From assembly GCF_009870065.1 (NCBI RefSeq), contig NZ_WWIA01000300.1, positions 1 through 41,694 of the forward strand: a stretch of 41,694 nt of DNA, written 5' to 3'. The position numbers and the translations under genes were made by a program. This DNA is from Streptomyces sp. SID5785 (GTDB lineage Bacteria; Actinomycetota; Actinomycetes; Streptomycetales; Streptomycetaceae). The number at the start of each line of letters is the position of its first letter. Positions within the stretch are counted from its first letter, which is position 1. The notes beneath the pieces were generated by a model. The model was given only the letters and a program-made list of their open reading frames with translations. It did not search any database and was not told the DNA's origin. This document shows positions 3,141-28,005 of the stretch, piece after piece.

Positions 3141-3170
3141 CGGCCTTCCTCCTCCCGGACAGGAGGGCCG
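3141..3170 (+). terminator. hairpin after the second LLM gene
   Basis: CGGCCTTCCT pairs with AGGAGGGCCG across a 10-base loop, ten pairs with one G-U. It lies 17 bases after the stop at 3124. There is no T-tract, which is normal in high-GC actinobacteria. It may attenuate rather than end transcription, since the amidohydrolase follows on the same strand. Confidence 0.45.
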
Positions 3171-5053: not shown

Positions 5054-6516
5054 CGTACACGGAGGGGAAGCTGTTCGTCGGCGGCGAGTGGACCGAGCCG
5101 GCCGGCGGGCACTACGACGTGGTCGACCCGGCGACCGAGCGGGTCGTGGGCCCGGCGCCCGAGGCCTCCCGGGAGCAGGTGCGGGACGCGGCGCGGGCCG
5201 CCGCCGACGCGTTCGGGCCGTGGTCGCGGACCCGGCCCGAGGAACGCGCGGCGATCCTCGACCGGGCCGCCGACCTCATGCAGCGGGACTTCACGGCCCA
5301 CGCCGAGCTGGCCCAGGCGGAGAGCGGGGCCACGACCGGCACGGCACGCGGCATGCAGGTCGCGGTCGGCGTGGCCCGGTTCCGGCGGTACGCCAGGGGT
5401 GCCCTGGAACCCGTCGAGCAGGGGCTGCCGCCGCAGATCAACGACGCGGGACCGATGGGGAAGGCGGGCGTCGTGGGGGCGCTCGCGCTGCGCCGGCCGG
5501 TCGGCGTCGTCACCTGCATCACCTCGTACAACAACCCGTGGGCGAACCCGGCGGGCAAGGTCGCGCCCGCGCTCGCCATGGGCAACACCGTGGTGGTGAA
5601 ACCGGCGCCGCAGGACCCGCTGTCCGTGTACCGGATGGCGGCGGCCCTGGAGGAGGCCGGGGTCCCGCCGGGCGTCGTCAACGTGGTCAGTGGGGCGTCC
5701 GCGGACGTCGGGCAGGCCGCGGTCGAGGCGCCCGAGGTCGACATGGTCAGCTTCACCGGCTCCACGGCGGTCGGGCAGGCGATCGGCGAGGTGTGCGGTC
5801 GCACGATGAAGCGGCAGCTGATGGAGCTGGGCGGCAAGGGCGCGGCCGTCGTGTTCGCGGACGCGGACCTGGACTCCGCCGTCGCCGGGATCGGCACCAC
5901 GTACGCCTTCTACAGCGGGCAGATCTGCACCGCCCCGACGCGGGCGCTGGTGCACCGCTCCGTGTACGACGCGTTCGTGGCAAAGCTGCGCGCCTACACC
6001 GGCTTCATGAAGGTCGGCGACCCGCGCGTCAAGGGCACGGTCGTCGGGCCCGTCATCTCCGCCGCGCACCGCGACCGCATCGAGTCGTACGTGGAGCTCG
6101 GCCGCAAGGAGGGCGCCACGGTCGTCACGGGCGGCGACCGGCCCGAGGGCCCCGGCACCGGCTTCTACGTCGCGCCGACACTCCTCGCGGACTGCACGAA
6201 CGACATGCGGGTCGTGCGGGAGGAGATCTTCGGGCCGGTCGTCGCGGTCGTGCCGTTCGACGGGGACGAGGACGAGGCGGTGGCGCTCGCGGACGACAGC
6301 GACTACGGGCTCATCGACTACGTGTGGTCCGGCGACGTCGCGAAGGCGTTCCGGGTCGCGCGGCGGTTGCGGGCGGGTGGGGTCGGCGTGAACACGGTCG
6401 CCCGCAACATGGAGGCGCCGTTCGGCGGTTTCAAGAAGAGCGGGGTGGGCCGCGACGTCGGCTCGTACGCCCTGCACGCGTACAGCGAGCTCCAGTCCAT
6501 CGTGTGGCCCGGCTGA
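5050..6516 (+). CDS. aldehyde dehydrogenase family protein
   Basis: The 488-residue NAD(P)-dependent aldehyde dehydrogenase oxidises an aldehyde to the acid. Catalytic Cys is near 293 in SGQICTAPTR and general-base Glu near 259 in MELGGKGA. The SFTGSTAVG cofactor loop and the C-terminal APFGGFKKSGVGRD are present. Length is normal for the family. The GTG start at 5050 overlaps the stop of the amidohydrolase by four bases, so translation is coupled and the two products likely act in sequence. It ends the catabolic cluster; repeat-filled spacer follows. The natural aldehyde cannot be told from sequence. Confidence 0.92.
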   Translation: MTYTEGKLFVGGEWTEPAGGHYDVVDPATERVVGPAPEASREQVRDAARAAADAFGPWSRTRPEERAAILDRAADLMQRDFTAHAELAQAESGATTGTARGMQVAVGVARFRRYARGALEPVEQGLPPQINDAGPMGKAGVVGALALRRPVGVVTCITSYNNPWANPAGKVAPALAMGNTVVVKPAPQDPLSVYRMAAALEEAGVPPGVVNVVSGASADVGQAAVEAPEVDMVSFTGSTAVGQAIGEVCGRTMKRQLMELGGKGAAVVFADADLDSAVAGIGTTYAFYSGQICTAPTRALVHRSVYDAFVAKLRAYTGFMKVGDPRVKGTVVGPVISAAHRDRIESYVELGRKEGATVVTGGDRPEGPGTGFYVAPTLLADCTNDMRVVREEIFGPVVAVVPFDGDEDEAVALADDSDYGLIDYVWSGDVAKAFRVARRLRAGGVGVNTVARNMEAPFGGFKKSGVGRDVGSYALHAYSELQSIVWPG

Positions 6517-22605: not shown

Positions 22606-22710
22606 GGCGCCCGTGCACGGGCGCCGTGCTAGCGTCGCGAGACCGGGGCAGCGACGTTCCCTCGGTCGGCGGGGTCGGGGACGACGACGGTACGTACGGG
22701 AGTGTCAGCA

Positions 22711-24543
22711 GTGGCCACAGCGGAGCCGACGCGCGCCGACGACGACGCCGAGCCGGGCGCGGGCCGCGTACGAATAGGGCCTCCCGGGCGGGCCGGGGCC
22801 GACGCGGAGCGCGGCGGCGTCCGGGCCTGGGCGCGGCGGGCCGAGCGGCACCCGGTGATCGTCGCCACGGCGGTCGCGGCCGCCGTCCACCTCCTGTGGT
22901 TCTTCACGTTCGCGAACAGTGGCGGTGACCTCGCCGCCCAGGACGCGTGGGCCGAGTTCGTCGGCCGGCACCCCGACTCCGCGTACAACCTCGCCTGGTA
23001 CGGCGGCATGCACCCCGTCTCGTACAGCGTGGTGTCCCCGTACCTGATGTCCCTGCTCGGTGTGCGGACGACGATGATGATCGCGGGGACGCTCTCCGCG
23101 GCGCTGCTCACCCTGATCCTGATCCGCACGCGGGTCGTCGCCCGCCCGCTGTGGCCCGCGCTCGCGGGCGTCTTCGCGCTGCTGTGCAACGCGGCGTCGG
23201 GCCGCGTCACGTTCGGCCTCGGCATGATGTTCGGGCTCGCCGCGGTCGCCGCCGTGTTCTGCTGGCCGCACCGCTGGCGGTACAAGCGCTGGGCGAAGGC
23301 CGCGGTCGCCGCCCCGTTCGCCGGGATCGCGACGGCCGCGTCGCCGGTGGCCGGGCTGTTCGTGGGCCTCGTCGCGGTCGCGCTGTTCCTGCAGAAGCGG
23401 CGTCCGGGGGCCTGGGCGCTGGGCCTCGCACCGGCCGCCGTGGTCGGCCTCTCGGCCTGGCTGTTCCCGTTCTCGGGGACGCAGCCGATGTCGTTCGGGT
23501 CGGCGCTGCTGCCGCTCGTCTACGGCGCGCTCTGCTACGCGCTGGTGCCCAGGGAGTGGGTGACGGTCCGGATCACGTCCGCCGTGTACACCCTCTCCGT
23601 CCTCCTCGTCTGGCTGATCAGCTCGCAGATCGGCTCGAACATCACCCGGCTGCCGATGCTGTTCGCCGGGGTCGCGCTGCTCGCGGCGCTGCCGTTCACG
23701 CAGCGTCGCTCGCGCAAGTGGTACGCGATCGTCGTCGCGTTCGTCGGGATGAACGCGTGGGTGGGCTTCAAGTCCGTCGACGACATCGTCCACACCACCC
23801 CCGAGGCGTCCTGGACCCGCGAGCTGGCCCCCCTCGTGAACGAGTTGCAGGAGGTCAAGGCGGAGCGCGGCCGCGTCGAGGTCGTCCCGGCCCGCTCCCA
23901 CCGCGAGGCGTCGGCGCTCGCCCCGTACGTGAACCTGGCGCGCGGCTGGACCCGCCAGGCCGACATGAAGCGCAACCCGCTCTTCTACGACGACACCCTG
24001 AACTCGGCGAACTACCACGACTGGCTCGGGCGCTGGGCCGTGCACTACGTGGTGCTGCCCAAGGGCGAGCCGGACGGGGACGGCGGCGAGCGCGAGCGGG
24101 AGCTGGTGCAGCGCGGTCTGCCCTACCTGCGCCAGGTGTGGGGCGATGCGAACTGGCAGCTGTTCGCCGTCACCGACCCCACTCCGATGGCCGAGCCGAA
24201 CGCGGTCGTCGACGCCGCCGAGCAGAGCGAGCTGACCATCGAGGTCACCAAGCCGGGCCGGATCCTCATCCGCGTCCTGTACTCGCCGTGGCTGTCGGTC
24301 GTCGACGAGGACGGCAAGAGCCTCGGCGTGCCCGAGGAGACCGACGCGTCCCGGCGGGCCCGCGAGCAGGACGACACCCTGCCCAAGAAGTACGCCAACG
24401 AGCACGGCTGCCTCCAGGAGACGGAGGAGGACGCCTCCGGCGACCGCTGGACCGAACTCCTCGCTCCCCGCGCCGGTACCTACCGCCTGGGCGCCCCGGT
24501 GCAGATCCCCCGCGGCACCCCGTGCCCGGAAGAACTCCGCTGA
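22711..24543 (+). CDS. polytopic membrane protein, GT-C-like topology, function unknown
   Basis: About 610 residues. The N-terminal 30 residues are hydrophilic; then about 10-11 hydrophobic segments run to residue 360. A roughly 250-residue soluble C-terminal domain follows. The first loop after TM1 carries GGDLAAQDAWAEF, with acidic residues, and then HPVSYSVVSPYLM; an acidic first extracytoplasmic loop is typical of GT-C glycosyltransferases using lipid-linked sugars. Automated tools may call it an MFS transporter. GTG 22711 has CGGGAG eight bases upstream; GTG 22702 is in frame. A TAGCGT -10-like element lies at about 22632. It follows the carboxypeptidase and may also serve the cell wall, but this is inference. 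Confidence 0.7.
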   Translation: MATAEPTRADDDAEPGAGRVRIGPPGRAGADAERGGVRAWARRAERHPVIVATAVAAAVHLLWFFTFANSGGDLAAQDAWAEFVGRHPDSAYNLAWYGGMHPVSYSVVSPYLMSLLGVRTTMMIAGTLSAALLTLILIRTRVVARPLWPALAGVFALLCNAASGRVTFGLGMMFGLAAVAAVFCWPHRWRYKRWAKAAVAAPFAGIATAASPVAGLFVGLVAVALFLQKRRPGAWALGLAPAAVVGLSAWLFPFSGTQPMSFGSALLPLVYGALCYALVPREWVTVRITSAVYTLSVLLVWLISSQIGSNITRLPMLFAGVALLAALPFTQRRSRKWYAIVVAFVGMNAWVGFKSVDDIVHTTPEASWTRELAPLVNELQEVKAERGRVEVVPARSHREASALAPYVNLARGWTRQADMKRNPLFYDDTLNSANYHDWLGRWAVHYVVLPKGEPDGDGGERERELVQRGLPYLRQVWGDANWQLFAVTDPTPMAEPNAVVDAAEQSELTIEVTKPGRILIRVLYSPWLSVVDEDGKSLGVPEETDASRRAREQDDTLPKKYANEHGCLQETEEDASGDRWTELLAPRAGTYRLGAPVQIPRGTPCPEELR

Positions 24544-24672: not shown

Positions 24673-25128
24673 ATGTCATGGGACGAGGACTGGGCACAGC
24701 TGAAGGCCGACGCACTCGCGCGCGGCGGACCCGACACGCGGATGCGGCTGAACCAGCTGGCCCCCGCAGCGGGCGGGGGAGGGGGAGCCGACGGCGGCGA
24801 TCTCGTCGCCGACGCCACGTCCATCGACGGGAACGCGCACCTGCTGCTGGAGATCGCGGGCGTGCTCTACGAGGGCCGCATGGACGGCGAGAACGCCACG
24901 CAGGCGCGCTCGCCGCGCGCCCACGCGGACGTGGCCGCGTCCGTCACGTCGTTCGCCCGCTACGCGCAGGACCAGTACAACGACATGGTCGTGCTGCTCG
25001 CCGCGCTCGCGGGCAACGTCCGTTCGGCGGGCCAGACCTACACGACGTACGACCAGGGTGTGCGGGCCAAGCTCGAGGAAGTGCTCCGGCAGGGCACGTA
25101 CACGCCCCCGAAGGGCGGGTTCGCGTGA
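24673..25128 (+). CDS. WXG100-like small helical protein, first gene of putative type VII operon
   Basis: The 151-residue protein has no signal peptide. It starts MSWDEDWAQLKADALARG; a Gly-rich linker (residue 33-41) is followed by a long amphipathic helical hairpin from LVADATSIDGNAH to YDQGVRAKLEEVLRQ. Length and helix pattern are like ESX/WXG100 partner proteins, although the W-x-G turn itself is not clear. Its stop overlaps the start of the next gene by one base (TGATG), so the products are made together and may form a heterodimer. I do not know a characterised homologue. Confidence 0.75.
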   Translation: MSWDEDWAQLKADALARGGPDTRMRLNQLAPAAGGGGGADGGDLVADATSIDGNAHLLLEIAGVLYEGRMDGENATQARSPRAHADVAASVTSFARYAQDQYNDMVVLLAALAGNVRSAGQTYTTYDQGVRAKLEEVLRQGTYTPPKGGFA

Positions 25129-26468
25129 TGGCGTATCGCAAGGACGTGGAGTTCCTCGAGAACACGAACCCGGCCCTCGTCGAGCGCAACGCCGCCGAGT
25201 TCCGCCGCCTGCACCGGCTCGTCGAGTCCACGGACGACGGCTTCCGCAAGGCCCGTTCGGTGCACTGGACGGGCGAGGCGCGGGAGTCGTACGGCAAGCG
25301 GCTCAAGGAGGCCGGCGCGATCGCCGAGGCCCTGTCGACGGCCTTCTCCATGGCGGCGGGCGCGCTGACCGCGTACGCGGACGCCCTCACGACGGCGAAG
25401 GGCCACTACAAGAGCGGCAAGCACACCGAGGGGCAGCTGTCCGAGGTGATGTCCCGGGAGGCCACGGCGGTCACGCCGACCGCGCGCGCCGCCGAACCGC
25501 TGCACCAGTGGGAGGACCTGCGGGCGACCACGGGCGTGGGCGACTGGTTCATGGAACTCGGCGTGGACGTGGACGCCATCAGGGAGGACGCGGAGCGCTA
25601 CTACAACGCGACCAGGAACCACTACGGCGACGCCCGGCGCGTCGAGTCCGAGGCGCGCACCGAGTGCCTGGGCGTCCTCAAGGGCGCCTACCTGTCGATC
25701 CCGGACTTCAAGAGCCCGGTCGGCGACCCGCTCGCCTTCCTGAAGAGCCTCGGCCCCCTCCAGGCGGAGGCGCGCGAGGCGCACTCCAACCCGTACGCCC
25801 AGCTGCCGGGCACGGGCCCCAAGGTGGACACCATCCCCACCCAGGCCGGGAACGTCGTCATCACGGCCCCGCTGTGGCGGATCAGCACCCGCGTGGACGA
25901 ACTCGGCGGCAGCGCCCAGGGAAACAACTACTGGTGGTGGTCGAACAGCGACGAGGGGCGGCGCAGCTACATCTCGGCGAACAAGAAGTTCATCGAGGCC
26001 GCCGCGGCCGACTCCGGACTGCCTCCGGAGATGGTCGCCGGGATCGCCTGGCAGGAGGTCGAGGGCGATCCGGGCTGGCTGGACGACGCCGCGCGGACCG
26101 GACGCGGCGTCATCCCGGGCACCGGCGACCCCGACGAGACGTCCATCGGGCCGCTGTCCATCCAGGTCAGGCGGGCCGCCGAGGTGCTCGGCTACGATCC
26201 CGAGCATCTGACGGACATGCAGCGGGACCAGGTCGTGTCGGCCACCAAGGACCCCGCGAAGAACATCTTCATCGCCTCCGAGTACCTGGCCCAGCTCAAG
26301 GCGGAGAGTGGCTTCGCGGACGTCCCGCCGGAGAAGATGACCCGGGAGCAGATGCAGGAGCTGGCGGCCCGCTACAACGGCGGACCGTACTACGAGGATC
26401 CCAACGCCCAGGCGTACGGCAGGGGATTCGACAAGAAGGTCGACCAGGCCAAGGAGGCGCTCGGGTGA
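25128..26468 (+). CDS. WXG-type protein fused to a lytic-transglycosylase-like domain
   Basis: The 446-residue protein has no signal peptide or TM. Residues 1-100 form a helical hairpin with W47-T-G49, as in WXG100/LXG secretion modules. Residues 100-270 are helical linker with a short Trp/Asn-rich GNNYWWWSNSDEG. The C-terminal domain (about 280-446) shows the three motifs of SLT lysozymes: Glu in GIAWQEVEGDP, the G-x-x-Q motif in TSIGPLSIQV, and RYNGGP for AYNAGP. It likely cuts peptidoglycan glycan strands after type VII export. Upstream and downstream genes overlap it by one and four bases. A housekeeping hydrolase is the alternative to an antibacterial effector. Confidence 0.8.
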   Translation: MAYRKDVEFLENTNPALVERNAAEFRRLHRLVESTDDGFRKARSVHWTGEARESYGKRLKEAGAIAEALSTAFSMAAGALTAYADALTTAKGHYKSGKHTEGQLSEVMSREATAVTPTARAAEPLHQWEDLRATTGVGDWFMELGVDVDAIREDAERYYNATRNHYGDARRVESEARTECLGVLKGAYLSIPDFKSPVGDPLAFLKSLGPLQAEAREAHSNPYAQLPGTGPKVDTIPTQAGNVVITAPLWRISTRVDELGGSAQGNNYWWWSNSDEGRRSYISANKKFIEAAAADSGLPPEMVAGIAWQEVEGDPGWLDDAARTGRGVIPGTGDPDETSIGPLSIQVRRAAEVLGYDPEHLTDMQRDQVVSATKDPAKNIFIASEYLAQLKAESGFADVPPEKMTREQMQELAARYNGGPYYEDPNAQAYGRGFDKKVDQAKEALG

Positions 26469-26800
26469 GCCGCACGGGGACACCGCCGCTCGACCGGCCC
26501 GCCGCGACCCGGGCCGGCGCCCTGGTCTGCGGTGCGGTGCTGACGGCCGCGAACCTGGTCACCGGCTTCGCGACCGTGACCGCGTACCGGGCGGGGCCCG
26601 CCGGTCCGTGGGACCACGAGGGGGTCACGCATGTGAAGGCCGCCGCCGGTCTCGGGGTGGGGTGCGCGGTGCTGACGCTGCTCCTGACGCTGGTGTGCGT
26701 GAAGGCCCGCTGGCTGCGGTCGGCCTGGTGGTACGCGGTGCCCGCCGCGCTCGGCGCGGCGGCGCTGCTGCGGCTGACGGTTCTCCTGCCGCACACCTGA
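26465..26800 (+). CDS. three-TM small membrane protein, possible immunity partner
   Basis: The 111-residue protein has three hydrophobic segments: about 17-40 (LVCGAVLTAANLVTGFA), 57-78 (AGLGVGCAVLTLLLTLVCV) and 86-107 (WYAVPAALGAAALLRL). The GTG start overlaps the preceding stop (GTGA), so it is translationally coupled to the hydrolase gene. I recognise no family. A small membrane protein in this position would fit an immunity protein or a secretion accessory. Its stop codon lies inside the left arm of a 20-pair terminator. Confidence 0.75.
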   Translation: MSRTGTPPLDRPAATRAGALVCGAVLTAANLVTGFATVTAYRAGPAGPWDHEGVTHVKAAAGLGVGCAVLTLLLTLVCVKARWLRSAWWYAVPAALGAAALLRLTVLLPHT

Positions 26801-26843: not shown

Positions 26844-27947
26844 TCAGGCGCGTTCGCGCAGGGAGCCGACCGTTCTGAGGAGGCGGTCGGCGCGGTCGCG
26901 CAGGGCCGGGTTGGCCAGAACCGTGTTGCGCAGGCCGCGGACCGGGCGGCGCCACATCCGGTGGGCGGTGGCGACCGGGTGGGCGGTGCGGGTGGCGAAG
27001 CCCTCGCCGACGCGCAGCTCACGCGTCTTGAGCCAGTCCTTGTACTCCTTCTCGCCGCGCCCCCAGTCCATCACCCTGATGCCGTCCCGGCCGGCCGCCT
27101 CCGCCATCCGCAGGTGCATCATCAGGCCGGGCGAGTAGTAGCGGAACTCCGGGTCGTACGCCGTGAACCAGGCCGCGAAGACGGTGCGGGAGGCCGGGCC
27201 GAAGTGGGCGGCGACCGGCCGGTCGCCCGCGTAGACGACGGACAGGATCCCCTTGAAGTGCTCCTCGCGGACCTCGAAGAGGTGGTCCACCAGGTGCACG
27301 ATCCAGGGCCGGGCGAACCGGTCCATGCGGCCGGTCCTGCGGTACTGGGCCGACTTCCACCGCATCAGCCGGTGCAGCACCTCCGGGTCGCGCTCGTCGT
27401 ACACGAACCGCATCTCGCCCATGTCCCGCGTGAGCCGGCGCTCCTTCTTGAGCATCGTCTTGGCCTGGCCCGGATACGAGGCCTTCAGCCACTCCGCGTA
27501 CGAACCGTGGCCGCCGTCCTTCAGATCGAGCACGGGTGACGCGAAGGTCCCGGTGACGTACGGGGCGAACGGCTGCTGGTCGTCGACGAGATGGTCGAAC
27601 TCGAGGACGGAGAGGCGGCAGGCCCGCAGCAGGGCCTGCATGTCCCAGGTGACCCCGGGCCGGTGCACGAGCGCCTGGCAGTCGGAGAGCCCGAGCCCGA
27701 TCGCCCGGCCGACGCCCCACGGCCCCCGCTCGTACGGCAGGAAGCCCACCGGGACCGTGCCCGCCCGCAGCACCGCGACGCGTGCCCCGGGCCGGAAGCG
27801 GGCCACTCCGGCGGCGAACTCCGGTGACAGGAAAGGGTTCTGGTAGTCCGGTGCGTCGTCCATCGCCGCGTGCCAGGCGGTGCGGAGCGAGTCGCTCAGC
27901 TGATCGGGTCTGTGCGTCGTGACGGTCGTGACGGCGGTGATGCTCAC
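26844..27947 (-). CDS. CelD-like GNAT acetyltransferase
   Basis: The 367-residue protein has the double-GNAT architecture of the CelD/FemAB-like (BioF2-like) group. It shows NPFLSPEFAAGVARFRPGAR near residue 36, the pattern RLMRWKSAQYRRTG in the middle, and AHFGPASRTVFAAWFTAYDP then YYSPGLMMHLRMAEAA near 275-300. It ends with a DWGRGEKEYKDWL block common to the group. Relatives acetylate or aminoacylate polysaccharide or cell-envelope precursors; substrate unknown. GTG 27947 is chosen because a GGGGGG tract precedes it; ATGs at 27971 and 27980 lack a Shine-Dalgarno. Confidence 0.83.
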   Translation of the reverse strand: MSITAVTTVTTHRPDQLSDSLRTAWHAAMDDAPDYQNPFLSPEFAAGVARFRPGARVAVLRAGTVPVGFLPYERGPWGVGRAIGLGLSDCQALVHRPGVTWDMQALLRACRLSVLEFDHLVDDQQPFAPYVTGTFASPVLDLKDGGHGSYAEWLKASYPGQAKTMLKKERRLTRDMGEMRFVYDERDPEVLHRLMRWKSAQYRRTGRMDRFARPWIVHLVDHLFEVREEHFKGILSVVYAGDRPVAAHFGPASRTVFAAWFTAYDPEFRYYSPGLMMHLRMAEAAGRDGIRVMDWGRGEKEYKDWLKTRELRVGEGFATRTAHPVATAHRMWRRPVRGLRNTVLANPALRDRADRLLRTVGSLRERA

Positions 27948-28005
27948 GGCAGGCCCCCCTGTTTCCCCCATGGGGCTCAAAGGTCGCGAAACAGTACGCA
28001 GCCTG

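Follow-up and report, generated by a model that had tools for sequence, protein, structure and literature searches.

What is the physiological role of a compact three-gene operon in Streptomyces sp. SID5785? It lies on the forward strand at positions 24673-26800 of a 41,694-nucleotide stretch (positions 1-41,694 of contig NZ_WWIA01000300.1, assembly GCF_009870065.1), which we call the window, and its genes, here named G1, G2 and G3, overlap by 1 and 4 bases, with TGA/ATG having one base in common at the G1/G2 junction. An earlier reading of the bare sequence, the original prediction, had reported these overlaps, which we confirm, and had seen in the three products an export partner, an effector and an immunity protein, an assignment that our sequence comparisons and structure models support. 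We propose, with a probability of roughly two in three for the whole chain, that the operon encodes an antibacterial cell-wall hydrolase exported by the type VII secretion system (T7SS), together with its partner and an outward-facing membrane immunity protein.

In this scenario, G1 and the helical N-terminal half of G2 would form a heterodimer, in the manner of PE or EspC proteins with PPE proteins, and the pair would leave the cell by its own EccC-type machine. Once outside, the C-terminal domain of G2 would cut the glycan strands of peptidoglycan in neighbouring, mostly related, bacteria, with E310 as the putative catalytic acid and Q346 and the YNGGP motif in the predicted substrate groove. 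G3 would reside in the membrane of the producer, its acidic GPWD loop predicted to face outward, and may block the enzyme at the cell surface; producers, as well as strains that keep only G3, would be protected.

Conservation and distribution of the operon

The operon is not a product of chance open reading frames (ORFs), since its gene order is kept in 33 non-redundant loci with intact G2, the window included. G3 follows G2 directly in all 33, with its start 1-29 bases inside the end of G2, and G1 directly precedes G2 in 32. In the remaining locus, L001 (S. musisoli, 5300-6010), both G2 and G3 are whole, but other sequence stands in place of all but the final codons of G1, which offers a natural test of the need for G1. 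The 32 other G2 proteins are 46-73% identical to that of the window in an alignment of all 33. Left out of this set were two identical copies (L023, L025), two loci at contig ends (L012, L038) and two with broken G2 (L013, L014); the rows of this and all other alignments and counts have common ancestry.

A search of 246 Streptomyces genomes gave G2 matches in 59, with full-length, intact G2 at 25 places in 24 genomes and a further copy cut at a contig end; the other matches are broken copies, single domains or weak N-half matches to long frames. Our genome counts are lower bounds, the searches having scored part of the first-look candidates. In a phylum-wide set of 346 genomes, the whole of G2 matched two, and the catalytic domain the same two; one is the source genome of the window, and the other is likewise a Streptomyces. 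The distribution of the family among actinobacteria looks narrow. Among 120 pairs of 16 loci, the sum of the blastn pieces in common exceeds 2.3 kb in three (12.2, 4.9 and 3.9 kb); for the other pairs, among the best 25 listed, it is at most 2.2 kb, approximately the length of the operon. Thirteen plasmid records were matched by G2, and the ten examined comprise two from Streptomyces, seven from Enterobacterales and one from Nostoc; the two Streptomyces plasmids are linear and carry the operon with transposase genes nearby. Because of its patchy distribution, its changing surroundings and these plasmid copies, the operon has, by sequence comparison, the look of an accessory cassette moving from one context to another.

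The proposed export module

Residues 14-93 of G2 match Pfam T7SS_signal (PF21725) at 29.4 bits against a cut-off of 27, over profile positions 72-151 of 241 only. That G2 has no signal peptide, as originally stated, is in line with its homologues, since hydropathy reveals a hydrophobic leader in none of the 33. W47 is invariant throughout this set and sits in a predicted turn between helices 36-44 and 52-111; the WXG hairpin first described in G2 holds for its tryptophan, and the motif is mostly WxS, residue 49 being serine in 31 proteins and glycine in two, among them that of the window. In the AlphaFold model of G2 (mean predicted local distance difference test, pLDDT, 73.8), the N-half is long and helical. 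In VIA-align, PPE15 (Z 11.1, root-mean-square deviation (rmsd) 3.0, 163 of 173 residues), PPE41 (Z 10.5) and PPE4 (Z 10.1) are among its best matches, with the caution that helical models can easily score a Z of up to about 13 and that BAR domains also reach a Z of about 10, at a larger rmsd of 4-8.7. We regard the modelled PPE likeness as supporting, not proving. Membership of the PPE family (PF00823) or of LXG by sequence was considered and dropped, neither Pfam profile being listed for G2 at E up to 1.

The window contains no EccC, as had been noted; the protein is encoded elsewhere in the same genome (G000:C52). It is present in all 24 genomes with intact G2, a co-occurrence that is uninformative because nearly all genomes have EccC (225 of 246 over cut-off). 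The source genome also encodes two further T7SS_signal proteins with much stronger matches, both in frames that reach contig ends; one of them (L065) is RHS-like by eye.

G1 of the window has no match in the profile libraries scanned, no WXG motif was seen in it, and its structure model is too weak for use (pLDDT 55). Near its C-terminus, 27 of 29 aligned G1 rows carry [YF]xxx[DE], which we take to be a T7SS export signal, and 15 of the 29, the window included, have the strict form YxxxD/E. With a profile of the G1 family, full-length relatives are weakly detected (E 8e-8 to 9e-4); they measure about 150 aa and share the N-terminal helix. Twelve such regions were examined, with one full-length row (G046) left out, and a gene was called in eight (L163, L164, L165, L167, L169-L172). 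In all eight it stands directly before a gene for a 725-769-aa protein, and in three (L163, L165, L172) directly beside eccC, the neighbour in L165 being EccCa/EccCb by NCBIfam. Pfam EspC recognizes the L163 relative (26.8 bits, cut-off 23.5), whose large neighbour has a weak match to PPE (16.3 bits, cut-off 26). Of the WXG100-like helical partner originally proposed, the partner gene upstream is retained, in 32 of 33 loci; the family label is indirect, resting on the match of a distant relative to EspC. An EspC/PE-like partner appears to fit G1 better. By eye, small secreted or lipoprotein-like ORFs adjoin the G1-type gene or the 725-769-aa gene at L163 and L169-L171; perhaps the eight loci with a called G1-type gene include further effector-immunity sets of the Streptomyces T7SS.

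Could toxin and immunity protein be correctly recognized and the export route be wrong? G2 would then leave the cell by lysis or some other route, and G1 would be a cytoplasmic chaperone. The window, which was not searched for other secretion genes, has no EccC, L001 has whole G2 and G3 without G1, and the same enzyme domain rides on other carriers, namely RHS proteins with a leader-like start and Hcp-linked genes (see below). Set against this are the T7SS_signal match over cut-off, the PPE-like fold, W47, the [YF]xxx[DE] motif and the G1-type genes beside eccC in three of eight loci. We consider a route other than the T7SS unlikely, although it is the foremost of the alternatives.

The predicted enzyme domain

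The C-terminal domain of G2 models as a lysozyme or lytic-transglycosylase fold, in agreement with what had been read from its motifs. In VIA-align, the best match of the C-half is Tse3 (Z 10.6), and MltC, MltE, MltF and Slt follow at Z 9.2-10.3. Pfam SLT, with a cut-off of 21.3, scores 21.8 bits for the domain alone and 18.1 for the whole of G2. E310, Q346 and YNGGP, which belong to the lytic-transglycosylase motifs named in the original prediction, are invariant in all 33 proteins, as are further residues. E310 and Q346 are also invariant in the aligned RHS and Enterobacterales relatives, and of YNGGP these distant relatives keep the Y and one G, in a Y-x-x-G pattern. The three elements are presumably arranged as in peptidoglycan transglycosylases. 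The domain belongs to an unnamed family, PHROG 11932 (function not assigned), which it matches at E 3.7e-13. A phage origin of the catalytic domain was considered and dropped: although this PHROG exists, the domain found no match at E 1e-3 in 50,697 phage records. Sequence searches against solved structures yielded nothing useful.

The predicted immunity protein

G3 looks like an immunity protein. It had been described as a three-transmembrane (three-TM) protein in the place where immunity genes lie, and both features recur throughout: three TM segments are predicted in 33 of 33 homologues, each encoded directly after G2. By charge, the N-terminus is predicted inside and the first loop outside (mean net charge -2.06), and W49 and D50 are kept in at least 90% of the 33 rows.

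A further indication comes from co-inheritance and its breakdown. G3 matches occur in 62 of the 246 Streptomyces genomes. Apart from the intact operons and the tandem G3 copies that follow three of them (L039-L041), 50 further places were examined, four weaker rows (E 1.9e-5 to 7.7e-5) being left out. None of the 50 has intact G2. A whole G3, defined as one frame from profile position <=25 to >=95 with a start codon (L133 has none close to the position expected), is present at 38, and a broken or partial one at 12. Eight of the 50 places, seven of them with whole G3, are in genomes with an intact operon elsewhere; the remaining 31 of the 38 come from genomes for which the search returned no intact G2 at all. 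At 16 of the 50 places, remnants of G2 are located immediately upstream (L111-L115, L117, L118, L121-L125, L129, L131, L144, L157). Whole G1 without intact G2 was seen once, at L114, and pieces of G1 only at three further places (L122, L129, L158). In the opposite direction, no intact G2 lacking G3 was seen among the 33 loci with downstream sequence. Since G1 and G3 would survive equally often if the operon decayed at random, this loss bias towards G3 is what an immunity function predicts: G3 does vary independently of G2, but only in the direction expected of an immunity gene. At L114 (3465-14924), a second operon copy in genome G025, G2 is split at about residue 98 by about 9.3 kb of other sequence, and G1 and G3 are whole.

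Compared with their nearest relatives, the orphan G3 genes have pN/pS of 0.22-0.75 (median 0.42; 12 broken or partial copies left out, pairs not independent), and as the ratio is below 1 in 38 of 38, they are not simply decaying. Owing to common ancestry, the 38 orphans represent fewer than 38 independent events; four of them (L135, L136, L138, L148) have in common an upstream gene that is NUDIX-like by eye. An orphan G3 near a NUDIX-type gene was also observed on a linear plasmid (L188). The NUDIX-associated G3 is perhaps an old, vertically kept orphan.

The same domain on other carriers

A profile of the catalytic domain has matches in 38 of the 246 Streptomyces genomes. Setting aside copies and fragments of G2, two of the proteins found are RHS proteins of about 2900 aa that have a leader-like start and carry the domain as their C-terminal tip. 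Each RHS gene is followed by a small hydrophobic ORF (frames of 99 and 143 aa, grand average of hydropathy (GRAVY) 1.13 and 0.49) with three hydrophobic stretches by eye. In the Enterobacterales plasmid records, the domain has a gene of its own, encoding 223-240 aa and in one case annotated short at 172. Three of these enzymes, when scanned, match PHROG 11932 at E 8.1e-29 to 3.4e-84, as does one RHS tip (E 2.6e-14). A small three-TM ORF stands directly after the enzyme in seven of seven Enterobacterales loci, annotated as DUF2645 in five; hcp is directly before the enzyme in four, on its other side in one and not listed in two. The Nostoc relative (L189) breaks this pairing rule: it belongs to a protein of 1491 aa, and the annotation shows no small gene immediately downstream. 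The occurrence of one enzyme domain at RHS ends and beside Hcp is polymorphic-toxin behaviour. The use of enzyme domains on different carriers by polymorphic toxins is described in the available part of an earlier survey (PMC3482391).

DUF2645, which Pfam lists as of function unknown, is represented in Escherichia coli by YgiZ. The record of strain PN43 reads mdaB - hcp - enzyme - ygiZ - qseC, and that of K-12 mdaB - ygiZ - qseC. PN43 is 98% identical to K-12 up to position 1859 of L192 and again from position 3153, which is base 23 of ygiZ; from these alignment breakpoints, hcp and the enzyme are absent from K-12 and the ygiZ frame is kept with altered first codons. Among 5426 complete E. coli genomes, the enzyme is present in 1253 and ygiZ in 4549 (megablast, at least 80% query cover, counted separately). 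The PN43 record (NZ_MG591698.1, L192), filed as a plasmid, may be a fragment of the chromosome, since it carries parE, mdaB and qseBC, which are chromosomal in the K-12 record. DUF2645 has no detectable sequence relation to G3, and kinship of G3 with either DUF2645 or the RHS-linked ORFs was rejected at an hhalign probability of about 1%. The likeness of DUF2645 and G3 is thus one of kind: both are small, have three predicted TM segments, lie beside the same enzyme and are kept when it is gone. We found no paper that joins at least four of the topics ygiZ, DUF2645, type VI secretion, Hcp and immunity, and a word search of the main text of a structural survey of effector-immunity pairs of the type VI secretion system (T6SS) returned neither 'DUF2645' nor 'YgiZ' (PMC11148199).

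On balance, we lean towards a wider view of these loci, if by no great measure: the PHROG 11932 enzyme may be a travelling antibacterial warhead mounted on three delivery machines (a PPE-like T7SS carrier and leader-bearing RHS proteins in Streptomyces, Hcp-linked T6SS cassettes in Enterobacterales), each time paired with a small multi-TM guard of a different family that acts from the membrane and is kept after loss of the weapon. In most E. coli, among them K-12, YgiZ would then be a guard left without its enzyme.

Substrate and role of G2

Does the enzyme necessarily attack the cell wall? Lipid II is attacked outside the membrane by the T7SS effector TelC (PMC10765036), and the C-terminal domain of G2 might likewise act on lipid-linked precursors near the membrane or on another surface glycan. 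Such a substrate would explain a membrane-embedded guard, G3 and its counterparts elsewhere being small TM proteins, and the active-site loop of G2 is poorly modelled. Against it stand the closest folds, which are peptidoglycan-cutting enzymes, and the arrangement of E, Q and YNGGP, which we take to be that of peptidoglycan transglycosylases. A substrate other than peptidoglycan seems improbable to us and ranks after a different export route.

The least probable of the three alternatives, by a small margin, is that G2 serves its own cell as a T7SS-exported, house-keeping wall remodeller in sporulation, branching or, in the manner of EssH, the opening of the wall for the machine, with G3 as a membrane anchor, regulator or export helper. 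The Streptomyces T7SS has been tied to sporulation, and the catalytic domain of G2 is highly conserved. A dedicated T7SSb wall hydrolase, EssH of Staphylococcus aureus, is in print (PMC10765036; PMC13059805; both available in part). A house-keeping function is hard to reconcile with intact G2 in 24 of 246 genomes versus EccC in 225, with an operon found in changing surroundings and on plasmids, with 38 places at which whole G3 persists without intact G2, where a helper would be useless, and with the recurrence of the domain in RHS and Hcp-linked genes.

Our preferred reading, an exported antibacterial hydrolase with partner and guard, has to be held against several observations that weigh on the other side, in addition to the caution on Z scores and the near-ubiquity of EccC given above. 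With respect to export, the strict YxxxD/E signal is present in just 15 of 29 G1 rows, L001 does without G1, and eccC is not directly beside the G1-type gene in five of eight loci, which weakens the export step a little. As to the enzyme, Foldseek alone places Tse3 on top at E 8e-3 and returns nothing at E 0.001 or better, the loop from E310 to Q346 is modelled at pLDDT below 50, and conservation is higher in the catalytic domain than in the half for export, unlike in a typical polymorphic toxin; there are, moreover, just two RHS carriers of the domain in 246 genomes. Finally, guards against wall hydrolases do not usually take the form of a three-TM protein whose outside loop is short, and some orphan G3 genes may adjoin toxins that went unrecognised, the ORFs upstream of the 38 having been judged by length and GC content at third codon positions only.

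Features and neighbouring genes

The operon is flanked by a gene for a 613-aa membrane protein (22702-24543) before it and a convergent gene (26844-27980) after it. A scan of genome contigs gave 14 Streptomyces loci, among which L011 alone has the upstream membrane protein and carboxypeptidase of the window. The convergent neighbour was discarded as a member of the module, as it is near the operon in none of the 14.

Table 1. Coordinates of the operon, its predicted functional elements and related loci. Positions are those of the window unless a locus is named.
Feature	Position	Strand	Description
G1	24673..25128	+	151 aa, of which about 100 aa form the core; predicted partner in export, helical and EspC/PE-like; helix at the N-terminus, MSWDEDWAQLKADALA
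[YF]xxx[DE] motif of G1	25039..25053	+	Y123-D127
G2	25128..26468	+	446 aa; predicted effector, T7SS_signal/PPE-like N-half and lysozyme-fold C-half; no signal peptide
G2 residues 1-198	25128..25721	+	Predicted elongated helical export domain, W47 in hairpin turn
G2 residues 272-446	25941..26465	+	Predicted catalytic domain, unnamed family PHROG 11932
E310 of G2	26055..26057	+	Predicted catalytic glutamate; invariant 33/33
Q346 of G2	26163..26165	+	G-P-x-x-x-Q motif; invariant 33/33
Y416-N-G-G-P420 of G2	26373..26387	+	Motif; invariant 33/33
G3	26465..26800	+	111 aa; predicted immunity protein, three TM; GTG start
GPWD motif of G3	26603..26614	+	Predicted outside loop TM1-TM2
RHS carrier	L054:6647-15421	-	
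RHS carrier	L055:2455-11106	+	
hcp-enzyme-ygiZ region	L192:1932-3463		
ygiZ locus	L196:2479-2811		
hcp-enzyme-ygiZ region	L197:2019-3547		

Comparison with known systems

Type VII systems of Firmicutes are described as antibacterial weapons in the accessible parts of the literature. To our knowledge, the exports of the Streptomyces T7SSa, and their antibacterial use, are much less clear. The operon described here gives, in a tractable genus, a concrete candidate effector-immunity pair for which the catalytic residue (E310), the partner and the guard are all predicted, and suggests a function for PHROG 11932 as well as for DUF2645/YgiZ, which is present in most complete E. coli genomes. If our proposal is true, the strong bias towards keeping G3 once G2 is gone would document, in nature, the selection that incoming toxin exerts.

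How does this candidate system relate to those already known? In mycobacteria, the PE partner gene lies directly upstream of that for PPE. The N-half of G2 models with a helical fold similar to that of PPE15, PPE41 and PPE4 over 152-165 residues; unlike the mycobacterial proteins, G2 is not matched by Pfam PPE. For the C-half, the best fold match, Tse3, is likewise a muramidase effector, yet one delivered by the T6SS, and its inhibitor Tsi3 is a soluble periplasmic protein and not a three-TM one. The Hcp-enzyme-DUF2645 cassettes are similar to the operon in that a PHROG 11932 enzyme is followed by a three-TM ORF and in that the putative guard is commoner than the enzyme in E. coli; they differ in being T6SS-linked and in having no PPE-like half, and are known here from sequence alone. 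A further parallel is TelC of the Streptococcus intermedius T7SSb, for which we take TipC to be the immunity protein. In the parts of the sources available, TelC resembles G2 in attacking the envelope from outside the membrane and in having a matching immunity protein (PMC6193138; PMC10765036), and differs in being a lipid II phosphatase of the LXG family, with another enzyme and another export domain. Tox-Glucosaminidase is, like the G2 domain, a lysozyme-fold toxin domain thought to cut peptidoglycan, and differs in its occurrence in Firmicutes, its association with T6SS/PVC and its family, PF01832, as far as the consulted part of the survey goes (PMC3482391); PF01832 does not match G2.

Closest in overall plan is AaEAS of Amycolatopsis azurea, another actinobacterium, which comprises a predicted T7SS targeting factor, an effector with an N-terminal T7SS domain and a small predicted immunity ORF (PMC12691689). 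The earlier remark that no described system with exactly this make-up was known to its author has accordingly to be narrowed: the three-part plan is in print, and the enzyme is another one. In the open-licence literature, mostly at the level of titles and abstract starts, we found neither this operon nor, for Streptomyces, a lysozyme-fold T7SS effector paired with immunity described in any paper. The toxin of AaEAS is a cytoplasmic (p)ppGpp synthetase with LXG (PMC12691689), whereas here a predicted wall hydrolase is joined to a PPE/T7SS_signal-like half and accompanied by a three-TM guard. Thus, as far as the literature found extends, AaEAS already provides the precedent for the three-part plan, and the combination of enzyme and guard appears to be new.

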